Shown here in pieces: positions 1 through 6,008 of a stretch of DNA of 6,008 nucleotides. Every line of letters begins with the position of its first letter. Within the stretch, counting starts at the first letter, position 1. Source of the DNA: an uncultured Bacilli bacterium (GTDB lineage Bacteria > Bacillota_I > Bacilli_A > RF39 > UBA660). The notes below the pieces were generated by a model that worked only from the letters and a program-made list of their open reading frames with translations, was not told the DNA's origin and searched no databases. The position numbers and the translations under genes were made by a program. Location of the stretch: positions 1 to 6,008 of the forward strand of contig CANQNA010000087.1 of NCBI GenBank assembly GCA_947625005.1, in the 5' to 3' direction.

Positions 1-18
1 GTGTAAGATTAATTTTCG

Positions 19-30
19 TTGATATATCAA
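19..30. other. 12-bp perfect palindrome upstream of the left inversion site
   Basis: TTGATATATCAA is its own reverse complement and ends 30 bases before the left 18-bp site, in the noncoding leader of the silent cassette. It might be a protein-binding site, but short AT-rich palindromes are common by chance in such sequence. The rest of 1-60 shows no Shine-Dalgarno sequence and no convincing -35/-10 pair. Confidence 0.25.
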
Positions 31-37
31 TAAAAAC

Positions 38-3001
38 TTGTATTTTTACTTTTATGAATCAGACCAAGAAGTTCAGGATACTAAAATCGTTTCTTATGAA
101 GCAGATGGTACAGAAAAAATAACTGTAACATTAAGTGAAGAAGTAACAAGTCCTAAGTTCTATGTAAATGGAACACTAATTGCTGATGCTAAAGTAGATA
201 GTGCTAAAGCTCCTGTTTATGTAATAACAGCAACAGATATTTTAAAGGAAAATAAGGAAAACACATTAAGAGCAACAGATTCAGCAACATCATTTGATGA
301 AACAGTTAATTTCAACTATATTAAATTAAATGCTCCAAGTGAAGTAGGAGTTGCAGAAACAGTTTCAGTAAATAAAAAAAATAAAGTAAATGCAGCAAAT
401 GTTACAAATGCAAAATTATATGTAAAATTTGATACATTAAATGCTGATGATTTAACTGTAGAATTTACTGTAAAAGGTAAAGATAAAGATAAAAAAGACT
501 TAACTCGTGTATATACAACACATGTAGCTGGTAGTGAAACAGAAGCAAAAACTTTTGAAAATTTAAGTGAATTTGCTGATGGAAAATTATCAGTAAAAGC
601 TAGAGTAGTTAAAGAAGACACACATACTGTTTCAGTATCAACAGCAGAACAAACAGTAACAAAGTCTGCTGAAGCACCAATACTTACAGTAAAAAGTGTA
701 AACCGCTCAAGTGCTACACAAGTTAAAATAGGTTTAGGTACAGAAGGAGATGTTACTTCACTTTACTATTTAGTAAAAGATTCTGGAGAAGCTATTCCAA
801 CAGTTGAACAAGTTCTTTCAGATGGAACAAAAGCAACTAGTGAATGGAGTACTCCAACTCTAACTCTTGATAATAAAGGTATAACAGATGCAGCAAAAGC
901 TTATGTAGTATATCTTGTTGCACAAACAAAAACAGGAACAAATTCAACAAATATTGTTGCTGCAAAAGTAGCCAAAAATGGTGTTGATCAAATAGAAGCA
1001 GTTACAGATCTACAACAAATAGCTGAAACACAAGCTACATTTAAATGGAATTGGAATAATGAAGACGATGAACCATATTTAGTAGGATATAGAGTTGAAT
1101 TAATTTGCGCATCAAATACAAAAATTGTTTCTATAGACTCTAAAGAAACAAAACAAATAGACTTATTTGATGCCATAAAAGAATTATTAGCTATGGAAGG
1201 AAGTACTGGAAATGTAAAAGTTAATGTTTATGCAGTAGCTGATAATATTGATAAAAAAGATTCAAATGTTCTTTCAGCTACATTTACACCTCAACCTTTC
1301 GTATCTAGTATTACAACTACACTTGATAAAACAACATTATCTTGGATAGTTGCAGGAAATACAGAAAAAGCAAACTATACTGTAAAAGTTATTAAATATA
1401 ATGCAGATTCAAAGAATTTTGATGATGTAGTTTTAACAAAAGGTGTTGGAAGTAAAACTTCTTGCGATATATTAACAGATTTAAATGTTGAATCTTATGG
1501 ATTAGGATCATATATATTTACTGTAGTTGCAAATCCTGCAGCAGATGTATTAGCAACTTCTAAAGAATCAACAAAGGCTGATCATACAGAATATTATGTT
1601 ATAGAAGGAATTAAAGATTTAGAAATATCAAAAGTTGATGGATTAAAAGTTACTTTAACAGGAACTTTACTTCCAACAGATGATTATGAACTAGCAACAA
1701 GTTCGGATTCAAATAAAATAGTTTATGAATTATATTATAAAGCTGAAAATGGAGAATGGACAAAATCTACAGATTCAAACGTATTCGTAGCAAAACCTTA
1801 TGAATATGATGGAGATACAGATAATTTATTATATGGAGAAACATATTCTTTCACAATAGCAACTAAAATAACAAATAATGCTGGTTCAACAACTATTTGT
1901 GAAAAGAAAGCTACATCAGATGTTAAATGTACATTTGATGTTGAACCTATAACGGCTACTTTAACATATAAAGATTATGAGAAGAGCATGCAAAATCAAG
2001 GAGCAGTTATTGGAGACACATTAGTATTAGCAGAAAATAATGTAACATATAAAGATAATGTTCTATATCTTGGACTTACAGATAATAAAATTGCAACATA
2101 TAAAGCAGAAGATGATGCTAATATAGCAAAAGTTATAGAATTATTAAAACAAATGAAAGAAGACGATACAGTTAAATTAGAAAGCAATAAAGTTACAGAA
2201 TTAGAATTAAAAGCTCCAAGTGCTGGAACAACATATGATTTAACTTCAGTTGAAAAAGCTACAAAAGTTGAAATAACTGGAAATAGTGCAATGACAACTG
2301 TAAAAGGAAATTTAACTGCAATTACATTAAATGGAGTAGCTGCTAAATTCGATTTATCAGGTTTAACAGTTACTACAGCTAATGTTAATGAAGATAATGA
2401 TGAATTAAAAGTTGCTAAAGATACTTCTGTAGTTTTAGCAAGTGGTAAGAAAGTTGTTACAATAAATGATGTTAAATTTACAGAGGGTGTAGATGACAAA
2501 CTTGCTCCTGTAAAATTAGTTGCTAACAACTCATTTGAAACTACTGGAAGCACTAGAGGTACATTAAAAGTTGATTCATCAAAAGTTTCTGGAGAAGTAG
2601 CATTAACTTTAGATTCAAATAAGCAAAAAGAATTAGAAATTACTGCAAGTGAAGATGGATTAAAAGTATTAACAAATACTGTTGCTGGTGGAGATGTAAC
2701 CGTTTTAGGAGGAAAAGTTGACTTATCTAATAATGGATATACATTTGATAATGTAACAGTTAAAAATTCTGATGAAGAAAAACAATTAACAGTTGATTTA
2801 ATATTAGACAAAGTTGCTACAAAAGCTGATGCTAAACAAGCTGAAGCTGTTAAAACAGTTGCAGCAGTTGTAATTACAGATTCTAAATATCAATTTAAAG
2901 CAACTGAGGCAACAGATGCTCACTACACAGTCAAAGAAGGTTCAAATGTAGTTACATTTATTGTAGAAGCAGGAAAATCTGTAACAACAAAAAGTGAATA
3001 A
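38..3001 (+). CDS. Silent body cassette of a modular FN3-like surface protein, lacking its own start and signal peptide
   Basis: The frame is open from 23 (after an in-frame TGA at 20-22) to the TAA at 2999-3001. The coordinate start is a TTG with no Shine-Dalgarno sequence; the next in-frame ATG is at 1193 (residue 386), so the frame is probably not translated by itself. Residues 9-13 are DQEVQ, encoded by the inverted-repeat site shared with the opposite gene. Approximate layout: Ig-like strands 14-95 and 97-210; an FN3-like domain 212-320 with the YYLVK...PTVEQV...YVVYLVAQ pattern known from Bacillota surface proteins; further FN3-like domains near 321-419 (Trp pair in KWNW), 420-520 and 525-634; then a C-terminal region 635-987 with an amphipathic helix near 695-712, beta repeats, a helix near 925-945 and a final strand pair. 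There is no LPXTG motif, C-terminal membrane segment or obvious catalytic motif. It is probably an exported structural or adhesive protein once fused to a leader. The coding body is very likely real; its silent status is inference. Confidence 0.85.
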   Translation: MYFYFYESDQEVQDTKIVSYEADGTEKITVTLSEEVTSPKFYVNGTLIADAKVDSAKAPVYVITATDILKENKENTLRATDSATSFDETVNFNYIKLNAPSEVGVAETVSVNKKNKVNAANVTNAKLYVKFDTLNADDLTVEFTVKGKDKDKKDLTRVYTTHVAGSETEAKTFENLSEFADGKLSVKARVVKEDTHTVSVSTAEQTVTKSAEAPILTVKSVNRSSATQVKIGLGTEGDVTSLYYLVKDSGEAIPTVEQVLSDGTKATSEWSTPTLTLDNKGITDAAKAYVVYLVAQTKTGTNSTNIVAAKVAKNGVDQIEAVTDLQQIAETQATFKWNWNNEDDEPYLVGYRVELICASNTKIVSIDSKETKQIDLFDAIKELLAMEGSTGNVKVNVYAVADNIDKKDSNVLSATFTPQPFVSSITTTLDKTTLSWIVAGNTEKANYTVKVIKYNADSKNFDDVVLTKGVGSKTSCDILTDLNVESYGLGSYIFTVVANPAADVLATSKESTKADHTEYYVIEGIKDLEISKVDGLKVTLTGTLLPTDDYELATSSDSNKIVYELYYKAENGEWTKSTDSNVFVAKPYEYDGDTDNLLYGETYSFTIATKITNNAGSTTICEKKATSDVKCTFDVEPITATLTYKDYEKSMQNQGAVIGDTLVLAENNVTYKDNVLYLGLTDNKIATYKAEDDANIAKVIELLKQMKEDDTVKLESNKVTELELKAPSAGTTYDLTSVEKATKVEITGNSAMTTVKGNLTAITLNGVAAKFDLSGLTVTTANVNEDNDELKVAKDTSVVLASGKKVVTINDVKFTEGVDDKLAPVKLVANNSFETTGSTRGTLKVDSSKVSGEVALTLDSNKQKELEITASEDGLKVLTNTVAGGDVTVLGGKVDLSNNGYTFDNVTVKNSDEEKQLTVDLILDKVATKADAKQAEAVKTVAAVVITDSKYQFKATEATDAHYTVKEGSNVVTFIVEAGKSVTTKSE
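61..78 (+). repeat. Left copy of 18-bp inverted repeat, putative recombination site
   Basis: AGACCAAGAAGTTCAGGA is identical to the minus-strand sequence 6007-5990. It lies in frame in the plus-strand cassette and encodes DQEVQ plus the first bases of the next codon. With 8 G/C in 18 it is richer than the surrounding AT-rich sequence. The core GAAGTTC is a short palindrome around a central G. Identity stops at once on the body side (79 T versus A) and also at the one comparable outer base (60 C versus T). This fits a defined site rather than a leftover of long homology. Confidence 0.85.
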
Positions 3002-3015
3002 AATAATTAATAAAT

Positions 3016-3046
3016 CCTCTGGCTAAGCTAAGCCGGAGGTATTTTA
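3016..3046 (+). terminator. Rho-independent-like terminator of the plus-strand gene, possibly bidirectional
   Basis: Nine-base arms CCTCTGGCT (3016-3024) and AGCCGGAGG (3031-3039) pair fully, with one T-G wobble, around a 6-base loop. TATTTTA follows. The hairpin begins 15 bases after the TAA at 3001. On the opposite strand it is followed by ATTTATTAATTATTTT, so it could also stop transcripts arriving from the minus-strand gene. The short U tract makes strength uncertain. Confidence 0.7.
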
Positions 3047-3054
3047 CTCATAAC

Positions 3055-3191
3055 GCCTAAAAGGCTATATTACAAAGCTAAAGCCTTTGTTAATATCTGC
3101 ATAGCCGGAAGCATATATACAATCATAACCACCCGTTCACGGGTGGTTATGATTGGAGCTTTTAGCTTGAAAAAACGACTGGTGGTTATGG
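3055..3191. repeat. Structured intergenic repeat cluster, possible transposon-end or REP/MITE-like remnant
   Basis: Besides the large palindrome, this stretch holds GCCT/AGGC (3055-3058 with 3062-3065), AAAGGCT (3060-3066) pairing with AGCCTTT (3082-3088), and AAGCTAAA (3075-3082) pairing with TTTAGCTT (3161-3168), which encloses the palindrome. GGTGGTTATG occurs at both 3142-3151 and 3181-3190. No reading frame of note lies in the gap 3002-3216. The nested arms suggest a folded repeat unit, but its family is not established from this single copy. Confidence 0.4.
3121..3154. repeat. Perfect 15-bp-stem palindrome between the convergent genes
   Basis: AATCATAACCACCCG (3121-3135) and its exact reverse complement (3140-3154) enclose a TTCA loop. 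Neither side is followed by a clear U tract, so it is not a classical intrinsic terminator, although such a stem could still block or stabilise the 3' ends of both convergent transcripts. The arm sequence CATAACCACC recurs nearby in inverted form (GGTGGTTATG at 3181-3190). That resembles the subterminal hairpins of IS200/IS605-type elements or REP-like repeats, though no transposase remnant is present. Confidence 0.75.
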
Positions 3192-3216
3192 TTTAAAATA
3201 AATTATTATATAAATA

Positions 3217-6008
3217 TTATTTTATATTTTTTATCGTTACATCTGTTACTGGTTTCTCAAATAATATTGTTACTTCATCTGATTCTTTTTCTACAGTAAT
3301 TTTAGCGCCTGTACCACTTAAACCAAATGAATCTAGGTAATCTTTAATAGTTTTTGCACTAGCTTCATCAGATACACCATCTATCCCAGCAGCGATTATT
3401 TCTTCAATTGTTGAATCAACACTTAGTCCCTCTAAAGCATTTGTTGCTTTTACTTTAGCAGTTACATTAACTGTTAATGTTGTATCTTCTTTAACTGTTA
3501 CAGTTTTATTTCCAGATAAGTAATTATCTTTCATAGTTACTTCAGCTTCACCTTTTTGTACTTCTACTTCGATAGGAGCTAAAACACCTACTTTGGCATC
3601 AGTATCTGTTTGTACTGTAATTTTTCCACCATTTGATAAAATAGTAACATTTCCTAATTGTTGATCGCTTCCATTTTCATTCAATGAAACAAATTCAATT
3701 GTAACATCAGAATTTTCTTTATTTTCAAATGTATATCCAGTTTTTGAGCTTCCATCTACAACAACTTGTAGTTTTGGTGTAGTAGGATCAGTTTTTATGA
3801 TAGCTTCTGCAGTTGCTGTAACTTTTGTTCCATTAATTATAGCATTAGATTTTACTGTAAGTTCTTGTTCATCAGTAGTTGTTACACTTACACCTTTATC
3901 AAGTATAGTTTTTGCAGCTGCTGAGCCTGTTTCGATTGTAAATAATGCATTATTTCCTGTTAAAGTAACGATACCTCCTGTTGCTTTAACTCCTCTTTGG
4001 TGAGTATTTCCTTCAATTGAAACTTCTACATCTTTACCAACATTAAATGCTATAATTTTACTTGCAAGTTCATCTGACGCATTATTTGATAATTTGAATG
4101 ATAGTTTTTTACTTGTAGCTGAAACTATAACATCGTCTGGATATAATTTAATATTTTCAAATTGTTTAATTAAGTTTGAAAATTCTTCTGAATAAGTTCC
4201 TTCTGTATTTACATCATATTTTTCACCGTTAATATATGCTATATTTGTAGCTGTATAACAGAAAGTACCTTCATCATATTCATTTTCATCATTTTTTTCT
4301 ACTACCTTTAAGTTTTCTAATTTTGCAGCTTTTTTGCATGTTACAATTTTATCTGCACCGTCTGGATCAGTAGAAGTGTAACCAACAAGCTTAGATTCTC
4401 CTTTTGCAGTTCCTACAGTAGCTATAAATTTAAATGCATATCTTGTATCGGGTGTTAATCCATCTACAACAATTATATCTTCATTATCTTCATTTTTTGA
4501 AACTGTTACAGATTTTTTTACAGGTGTTTCAGATACTTTCCATTGAGATGTAACTGTATCTTTTGTTAAAGTATATACTTCTACTTCCCAAGTAGGAATA
4601 TTTCCATTTAATTCTAAATCATCTAAGTCTGCTACTGTAAATGTTACTGAATTTTCTTCTATTGTTTTTGCTTCGATATTTCCTGTTTTTACAACAAAAA
4701 ATGGAGCAGAAACAACTTTTTCAGAACTTATAATTAATCCAATATTTGCTTTTGCTTTTACTTTTATTTTTGCAGCATATACTGTATTTTCTTTTATGTT
4801 TGATAGTTCTGCTATATTTTCATCATCTTTAACTGTTGCACTCTCACTATTTGATAATGTGCCTTCACTTCCATCTGCATTTATAGTTACTAATTCTACT
4901 TCATATTCATCTACATAGTCTTTATTATTTTTAGAATCGTTCCAAGATAATTCATATTTACCATCATCAGTAGTTGTAAATACTATATCTGAAACTGCTG
5001 ATAAAGATGTTACTGTTACCTCTTTAGATGAGACAACTTCTGAATCCATAGAAGATCCATCTACTTTTCCTAATACAGTAACTTCTACTTTATACTTTCC
5101 AGCACCATCTAATTGATTTTTTAAACTTACCATAGTATTAGAATTTTTTCGTATAATTTCTTTTATAATTTTGTCATTTTTATATAATGTAATTTTAACA
5201 TTACTATCTGCATCAGATAACTTCCATGAGAAATTATCACTAGTTTTAAAATCAGGTTCTGTCATTTCAGTTGGAGCATCTTCTTGAGTAGCAATTCCTT
5301 TTTCTTTTGAAATAACAGTATGTGCCATAGCTGTTCTGTTTCCATAGTTATCTTCTATAATGTAATATAATACATAAGATGTTCCTGTTTCTAGTTCAGT
5401 TGAAACTATCTCATTTGTAACTTTGTTTGATGAGAAATTAGCTATTTTTGTAAGCTCAGTTATAGCTGAGGGTTCTGGAGATGCTTTCCCAGTATTATTA
5501 TAATTTTCTTTTACAACATAATATACTTTAGAAGCGGTATTTTTTCCGTAATATGTCAAAGATGCACTTGCACTTGGAGTATCTATACGATTTGTAGAAA
5601 CATCTACTCCCATATCAGCTGGATTAGTTGAAACATCTAAAACATTTTTTGTTATTTTATTTCTATAAATTACTTTTTCATCTTCATCAACTAATTCTAC
5701 TGTTAATGTACCATTTTCTAACTTATTTAAATTTATAATCCCTGGTACATTAAACTTAGATGTATTAGCAGGTATATTAATACTATTTTTTATTACTAAA
5801 TGATTTGTTGCTGTAGCAGATGTACCATCATATTTTGAATCATATACTTTTAAATTAACAACTTTATTTTCTTCAAACTCTTCGTTTGTTTTTACTTCAA
5901 TTAATATAGTAGATTTAGTATAGTTTTGGTTATTTACTATATTGTCTAAACTGTTGTTCTCATTGTCGTTAATAACAACACTAACATTTTCCTGAACTTC
6001 TTGGTCTA
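3217..6008 (-). CDS. Modular FN3-like surface protein, 5' end beyond the window; probably the currently expressed cassette
   Basis: The frame ends at TAA (3219-3217) and stays open through the right edge, giving 929 complete codons plus a partial nTA codon at 6008-6007. The first ATG inside the window (5613) is unlikely to be the start, because 131 further codons upstream stay open and begin with DQEVQ (6006-5992), the motif also found in the opposite gene. Counting that Asp as residue 1: an Ig-like part about 1-130; an FN3-like domain about 140-240 with YYVVK (162) and YVLYYIIEDNYGN (from 211); further beta-sandwich domains about 244-335, 337-435 (ELSW...YEVELV pattern) and 439-555; then a C-terminal region 563-929 with short beta repeats and a helix (AKTIKDYLDSFGL) before the closing strands. 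There is no LPXTG or C-terminal transmembrane segment, so surface attachment must lie in the missing N-terminus or be non-covalent. It converges on the plus-strand gene across 215 bp. S-layer-like, adhesin or other secreted roles are all possible; no enzyme motif was recognised. Confidence 0.88.
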   Translation of the reverse strand, partial: DQEVQENVSVVINDNENNSLDNIVNNQNYTKSTILIEVKTNEEFEENKVVNLKVYDSKYDGTSATATNHLVIKNSINIPANTSKFNVPGIINLNKLENGTLTVELVDEDEKVIYRNKITKNVLDVSTNPADMGVDVSTNRIDTPSASASLTYYGKNTASKVYYVVKENYNNTGKASPEPSAITELTKIANFSSNKVTNEIVSTELETGTSYVLYYIIEDNYGNRTAMAHTVISKEKGIATQEDAPTEMTEPDFKTSDNFSWKLSDADSNVKITLYKNDKIIKEIIRKNSNTMVSLKNQLDGAGKYKVEVTVLGKVDGSSMDSEVVSSKEVTVTSLSAVSDIVFTTTDDGKYELSWNDSKNNKDYVDEYEVELVTINADGSEGTLSNSESATVKDDENIAELSNIKENTVYAAKIKVKAKANIGLIISSEKVVSAPFFVVKTGNIEAKTIEENSVTFTVADLDDLELNGNIPTWEVEVYTLTKDTVTSQWKVSETPVKKSVTVSKNEDNEDIIVVDGLTPDTRYAFKFIATVGTAKGESKLVGYTSTDPDGADKIVTCKKAAKLENLKVVEKNDENEYDEGTFCYTATNIAYINGEKYDVNTEGTYSEEFSNLIKQFENIKLYPDDVIVSATSKKLSFKLSNNASDELASKIIAFNVGKDVEVSIEGNTHQRGVKATGGIVTLTGNNALFTIETGSAAAKTILDKGVSVTTTDEQELTVKSNAIINGTKVTATAEAIIKTDPTTPKLQVVVDGSSKTGYTFENKENSDVTIEFVSLNENGSDQQLGNVTILSNGGKITVQTDTDAKVGVLAPIEVEVQKGEAEVTMKDNYLSGNKTVTVKEDTTLTVNVTAKVKATNALEGLSVDSTIEEIIAAGIDGVSDEASAKTIKDYLDSFGLSGTGAKITVEKESDEVTILFEKPVTDVTIKNIK
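5990..6007 (-). repeat. Right copy of 18-bp inverted repeat, putative recombination site
   Basis: Read on the minus strand this is the same 18-mer as at 61-78, in the same codon phase of the minus-strand gene (DQEV, Q, then GA of a Glu codon). It lies one base from the window edge, so any extension of the repeat into the leader side cannot be judged here. Inverted orientation at the two extremes of a convergent gene pair is the arrangement needed for inversion. Confidence 0.85.

Follow-up and report, generated by a model that had tools for sequence, protein, structure and literature searches.

The window, by which we mean the whole stretch of DNA analysed, is a complete contig of 6008 bp with 29% GC that holds two convergent open reading frames (ORFs). 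Near each end lies the same 18-mer, AGACCAAGAAGTTCAGGA, found exactly at 61-78 on the plus strand and at 5990-6007 on the minus strand, where a single base is left before the contig ends; there is no third copy in the window, even with up to three mismatches allowed. The repeat stops at 18 bp because the flanking base differs (c at position 60 versus t). Both frames read it in the same phase as DQEVQ, which bears out what the first-pass annotation had reported on the exact match, the location at the two extremes and the matching frame. The left ORF (38-3001, plus strand) opens at 38 with TTG and, from the D of DQEVQ, encodes a leaderless body of 979 aa (62-3001). The core of its site, GACCAAGAAGTTC, occupies 62-74; since just eight codons precede the site and a stop lies upstream of them, there is no room for a leader. 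A spacer (3002-3216), in which two palindromes noted by reading the sequence (about 3016-3039 and 3125-3150) are possible terminators, separates this body from the right body of 929 aa (3217-6006, minus strand), whose ORF is still open where its 5' end meets the contig edge. The annotation had pictured both bodies behind one shared leader; that part needs correction, because the left ORF has no room for one ahead of the site and, the window being the whole contig, the right-hand leader lies outside it and had only been assumed.

The outer flank of the left site (1-60, plus strand) forms, together with 61-77, the first 77 bases of the contig. Within it, positions 10-34 hold a 25-mer with a TTGATATATCAA palindrome, the longest substring in common with the site flank of a silent cassette of genome G231 (locus L110, near 8862), where it lies in the opposite orientation; among the loci compared, the 18-base core of this 25-mer occurs only in the window and in L110/L092.

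The size of the repeat alone is weak evidence for anything. An exact inverted repeat of at least 18 bp arose in 8 of 1500 order-3 Markov simulations of the window sequence and in 30 of 1500 codon shuffles of it, that is, in 0.5-2% of cases, so that the earlier estimate of less than one per thousand windows was too strong. The specific 18-mer, with up to three mismatches allowed, appeared twice in none of 200 shuffles, a control that tests a chosen word. Chance is excluded because of the position and phase of the repeat and its recurrence elsewhere, and the case for a switch rests on other genomes.

Homologues of the two bodies

The left and right bodies show no detectable homology to each other (best BLASTP E 0.27). 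The right body contains an fn3 domain (4.3e-7), and its predicted model is a rod-like string of beta-sandwiches followed by a beta-rich C-terminal part (mean pLDDT 82.7, pTM 0.51), with generic Ig/FnIII receptors as structure matches. A scan of genome contigs yielded 74 loci for comparison, and left-type bodies were found in five of 292 genomes of one family of uncultured Clostridia. The left body is a full-length homologue of two silent bodies of genome G183 (c2 and c3, 33-34% identity) and of the leader-bearing proteins P0006 and P0008, and the right body has as homologues the leader-bearing proteins P0001-P0003 and, at 28% identity, the silent G183_c5. Identity between window bodies and array bodies is only 28-34%, a point against the reading set out below, and the remaining array bodies belong to types other than those of the window. 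P0001-P0003 are longer than the right body by about 185 N-terminal residues, a stretch that has a signal-like start and contains a module of dockerin type; the joint between this leader and the body aligns with DQEVQ. The leaders of P0006 and P0001 align with each other (33% over 188 residues), no alignment being reported outside the leader. Two leaderless homologues, P0009 (MIVPDQEVQETK...) and P0007 (...KKEQEVLDA...), begin at this same joint.

In the first relatives (L002-L045) none of the exact inverted repeats was seen to fall at a leader/body joint, so that the majority of leader-bearing homologues resemble single genes of the ordinary kind. In G001 (L026) the two body families of the window form a convergent pair in which each gene has a full or partial leader, and neither a recombinase nor an array accompanies them, so that convergence alone needs no switch. 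Viral scans with the right body and with alignments A2 and A1 returned no relative, and megablast of the window against phages and plasmids gave no match. The sole match of a viral scan with the 18-mer, phage contig L001, was rejected for its unrelated, GC-rich context.

Site arrays, leaders and a tyrosine recombinase

Sites of the same kind recur in relatives. The exact 14-mer AGACCAAGAAGTTC is present in five copies each in G183, G231 and G159, in one copy in five genomes and in none of the other 284 (n=292); the single copies (G001, G171, G122, G082 and G147) lie, by eye, in housekeeping-like genes and were set aside. As a control, the reversed 14-mer matched in 18 of the 292 genomes, never more than twice in any of them. 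A 13-bp core that admits an A/C variant, GA[A/C]CAAGAAGTTC, has 27 copies in five genomes and, in G183, G231, G159, G003 and G005, is where leaderless bodies begin. Site variants are consistent inside a genome (GAACAAGATGTTC twice in G004, GA[C/T]CCAGAAGTTCAAGA twice in G163). In G183 several leaderless bodies each begin at the window's site, and in G183, G231, G159, G004 and G163 together 19 such bodies begin at the site, two further bodies (G231 c3 and c5) being truncated by contig ends. Array bodies measure about 815-1030 aa. The first cassette of G004 (L168:33-3831) looks split into overlapping frames, one of 826 aa and then 2464-3831, and is perhaps a decayed body.

The arrangement of the sites is regular: over nine complete segments (5138-8562 bp, compared with 5945 bp in the window) and seven gaps, orientation is opposite in all 16 neighbouring pairs, and no direct neighbours occur. 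One feature of shufflons, segments of partial ORFs between short in-frame inverted repeats, is present in the window and in nine segments of relatives. Silent G183_c1 is 70% identical to the leader-bearing G001_a, and one body type is expressed in G231 and silent in G159 (48%). A weak Flg_new repeat match marks a body type that is leader-joined in G231 (L111:2912-5680) and leaderless in G159 (L113:11780-14224). Across six body pairs dN/dS was 0.39-0.85, below 1 although high, a crude NG86 estimate that serves as a hint only. Since the frames were chosen open, we make no use of the absence of internal stops in array bodies. Folding of four sequences from upstream of silent sites gave no convincing hairpin or terminator (z from -2.0 to +0.2), and the idea was dropped.

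One end of these arrays is a constant gene. In six relatives (G183, G231, G159, G003, G005 and G163) the expressed gene has a constant 5' part that stops at the site, and in the first four of them the leader gene ends there with PEQEV or PDQEV. By position, a small secreted protein and a sortase-like protein lie upstream of the leader gene in the same four genomes (sortase PF04203, 2.7e-14, scanned in G183 only). A dockerin-type module scored above cut-off in three of the four array leaders scanned (L083, L169 and L175) and below it in L111. Among seven candidate anchor proteins, one, L031 of G005, passed the Pfam cohesin cut-off, and two had weak, sub-threshold LPXTG matches; display of the product at the cell surface, by docking of dockerin to a cohesin partner, is therefore inferred rather than observed.

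The other end is a tyrosine recombinase of 378 residues (PF00589, 1.7e-33), whose nearest solved chain is the 'Int protein' of 6en0, which we take to be Int of Tn1549. A recombinase gene and further copies of the 18-mer are what the first-pass annotation had suggested looking for, and in the relatives both checks come out in its favour, the copies of the site being those described above, at equivalent positions. Identity among the recombinases is 92-100% for G231, G183, G159, G003 (93%) and G004, 83% for G163 and 74% for G005, and in each of the seven genomes the gene is followed, at a distance of 106-193 bp, by a site on its own strand. A minimal system, in G163, fits on one contig: recombinase, site, silent body, and a convergent expressed gene whose dockerin leader is joined at the site. 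At E <= 1e-60 the recombinase has 18 matches in the 292 genomes, of which 13 are only 36-63% identical; these 13 genomes have at most one copy of the site pattern each, and no array was found in the five of the 13 neighbourhoods that were inspected. Within the genus of G231 the gene is present in five of 30 genomes. The enzyme looks phage/ICE-type. In two of the five inspected neighbourhoods a gene resembling EF-Tu adjoins the homologue, by eye; these are L170 and L172, with homologues of 60-63% identity, and this setting suggests that the switch enzyme derives from integrases of mobile elements.

The bases next to the site allow a guess at where the window belongs in such an array. CCA precedes the site in six of six leaders, and flanks ending in TA were found in three of seven recombinase flanks and in none of the six leaders. 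To the extent that the contig reaches, TA also stands before the right site of the window, so that the right end may be the recombinase flank and not the leader, in which case both bodies would be silent; the left body is silent as arranged.

Alternative junctions at the site

In G003 the same body start has two upstream flanks. One and the same stretch, the initial 61 bases of a body, comes after the leader in contig C90 and after the recombinase flank in contig C33: C90 consists of the leader end, the site and the full body, C33 of the recombinase flank, the site and 61 bases of the body, and C90 contains the terminal 77-mer of C33. The leader contig, C76, terminates precisely at the site, its overlap with C90 being precisely 77 bases. 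Alternative junctions therefore coexist in the data. An overlap of 77 bases also joins C12 and C44 of G183, starting just 3' of the A/C base, which suggests a crossover on that side of it. By hand count, a contig end is no more than 80 bases away for 10 of the 27 sites. The core that is repeated falls far short of 77 bases, so that genuinely alternative sequences must be present in the reads to give such forks; two strains with different fixed arrangements could produce them just as inversion within one clone could. The left end of the window, with 60 bases plus 17 of the site, fits the same pattern.

Breaks in contigs can also arise otherwise, which tells against this reading. The break of contig C56 of G231 falls at a repeat inside a body and not at a site, and contigs of G100 and G271 also end at or inside leader/body joints, without the recombinase (E <= 1e-30) or the exact site. 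In G271, loci L086 and L087 (contigs C8 and C39) both open on one and the same leader piece, after which the bodies differ, and they also have convergent genes with identical leader starts, so that leaders are duplicated there without the array recombinase or site. In G159, a one-base difference close to the site separates the starts of the leader-joined and silent bodies, which may therefore be paralogues.

Duplicated leader segments of the G271 kind, along with paralogous bodies that reach up to 67% amino-acid identity inside one array, could be taken to mean that RecA-type homologous recombination or gene conversion acts between shared junctions without a dedicated enzyme, as it does in the sap genes of Campylobacter fetus. 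We consider this very unlikely, given that the DNA common to the joints is just 13-18 bp and independent of the body, that the forks are placed at the base of the site, and that recombinase and site are linked in every one of the seven genomes. Least probable of all, and hardly worth crediting, is that nothing recombines here: the 18-mer would be left over from a gene start that these genes have in common, conserved as coding sequence through descent or by chance, and the window would be two genes. The frequency of such repeats in shuffles and the convergent, leader-bearing pair of G001 agree with it, but the DNA site is common to leaderless bodies of unrelated types, five genomes have copies of it at equivalent positions, and one body start has two flanks.

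Judged by sequence comparison, the best reading of the window, and a very probable one, is a single segment of a multiple DNA inversion system of the shufflon type, chromosomal and with very large surface-protein bodies, in a lineage of uncultured gut Clostridia. Each segment would consist of two convergent leaderless surface-protein bodies between inverted in-frame sites; a single leader gene, with a secretion signal and a dockerin-type module, would stop at the site at one end of the array, and a dedicated tyrosine recombinase would occupy the other. Recombination between a plus and a minus site would invert the intervening DNA and bring another body in frame behind the leader. The recombinase presumably acts on the site, the window's own genome presumably has the same recombinase and inversion, and the likely role would be antigenic or adhesive variation. 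An invertible surface-protein switch at the 18-mer, as first proposed, is thereby the best-supported reading, through the sites, the recombinase and the double flanks of the relatives. Of the two-state form given to it, inversion at the 18-mer is supported, while the restriction to two states is not, the window being probably one segment of a multi-segment shufflon like the five-site arrays of relatives.

Known inversion systems and the modules between segments

The IncI1/IncI2 shufflon runs from pilV through segments of paired partial ORFs to rci (PMC5430464). The arrays resemble this system (pilV, Rci, sfx) in having a gene with a constant N-terminal part at one end and a recombinase at the other, in carrying two partial ORFs per segment as alternative C-terminal parts between inverted repeats (of ~19 bp there), and in the trouble they cause to assembly (PMC5430464). 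They differ from it in lying on a Clostridia chromosome, in their bodies of ~815-1030 aa, in the toxin-antitoxin modules of their gaps and in having a dockerin-type leader where the plasmids have a pilus adhesin. With respect to the R64 shufflon proper, the cargo is not the type IV pilus protein PilV, the leader being dockerin-type and the right body fn3. All matches of the array recombinase in the plasmid set fell below 60% identity, and there was no shufflon model among its NCBIfam hits.

By description, the vsa, vpma and vsp systems of Mycoplasma share with the arrays one expressed surface gene, silent copies and a linked tyrosine recombinase, and in vsa a leader is likewise joined to silent 3' ends; the proposed vpma sites lie upstream of start codons (PMC2268961). 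Here, unlike in those systems, the recombinase looks phage/ICE-like, the site is in frame and unrelated bodies are paired in segments. The cwpV and flagellar switches of Clostridium difficile are similar in belonging to Clostridia and in combining a tyrosine recombinase with a surface protein (PMC5903667 and PMC2784873), whereas theirs are small regulatory inversions and here kilobase coding bodies would be exchanged. Searches of the open-licence literature yielded neither a paper that links dockerin proteins with phase variation nor one on comparable shufflons. If our reading is correct, common uncultured gut Clostridia own a coding shufflon that swaps whole bodies of ~950 aa, and not short C-terminal tails, behind a dockerin-type leader, and a cell could keep altering its surface. 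The fragmentation of MAG contigs at such loci would be explained, the site and recombinase together would be a ready marker for more systems, and surface variation against phages or host immunity would become testable in existing long-read gut data.

All seven complete gaps between segments (L083, L109, L110, L111 and L113) contain a toxin-antitoxin module: a nucleotidyltransferase/HEPN pair (HEPN/MNT) twice in G183 and once in G159, RelB/YoeB in G183, G231 and G159, and AbiEi/AbiEii in G231. G004 has an AAA/DUF4143 gene within a segment instead. Chromosomal integrons also carry toxin-antitoxin modules, and these genes, the phage/ICE-type appearance of the recombinase and the variation of array content between genomes would all suit an integron-like capture process: body cassettes would enter and leave at the site through the recombinase, the array would grow by acquisition, and inversion would be a by-product. 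The uniform alternation of neighbouring sites, with no direct-repeat neighbour, speaks against such capture, as do the presence of two bodies in each segment and the leader at one end to which bodies are joined in frame, and we regard it as unlikely. Within a shufflon, the gap modules suggest a way to stop a recombining array from deleting itself. They would kill cells that lose segments through directly repeated sites, so that inversion would be free and deletion guarded. We put forward tentatively, as possible although somewhat improbable, an addiction-guarded shufflon in which a phage/ICE-type integrase has become a combinatorial generator of the surface coat with paired bodies of ~950 aa. 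A further AbiEii match lies in the open gap at the end of L110 (G231, contig C3), and the last ~100 bases of that locus, close to the contig end, hold a degenerate site-like string, CCAGACCAAGAAGCAC.
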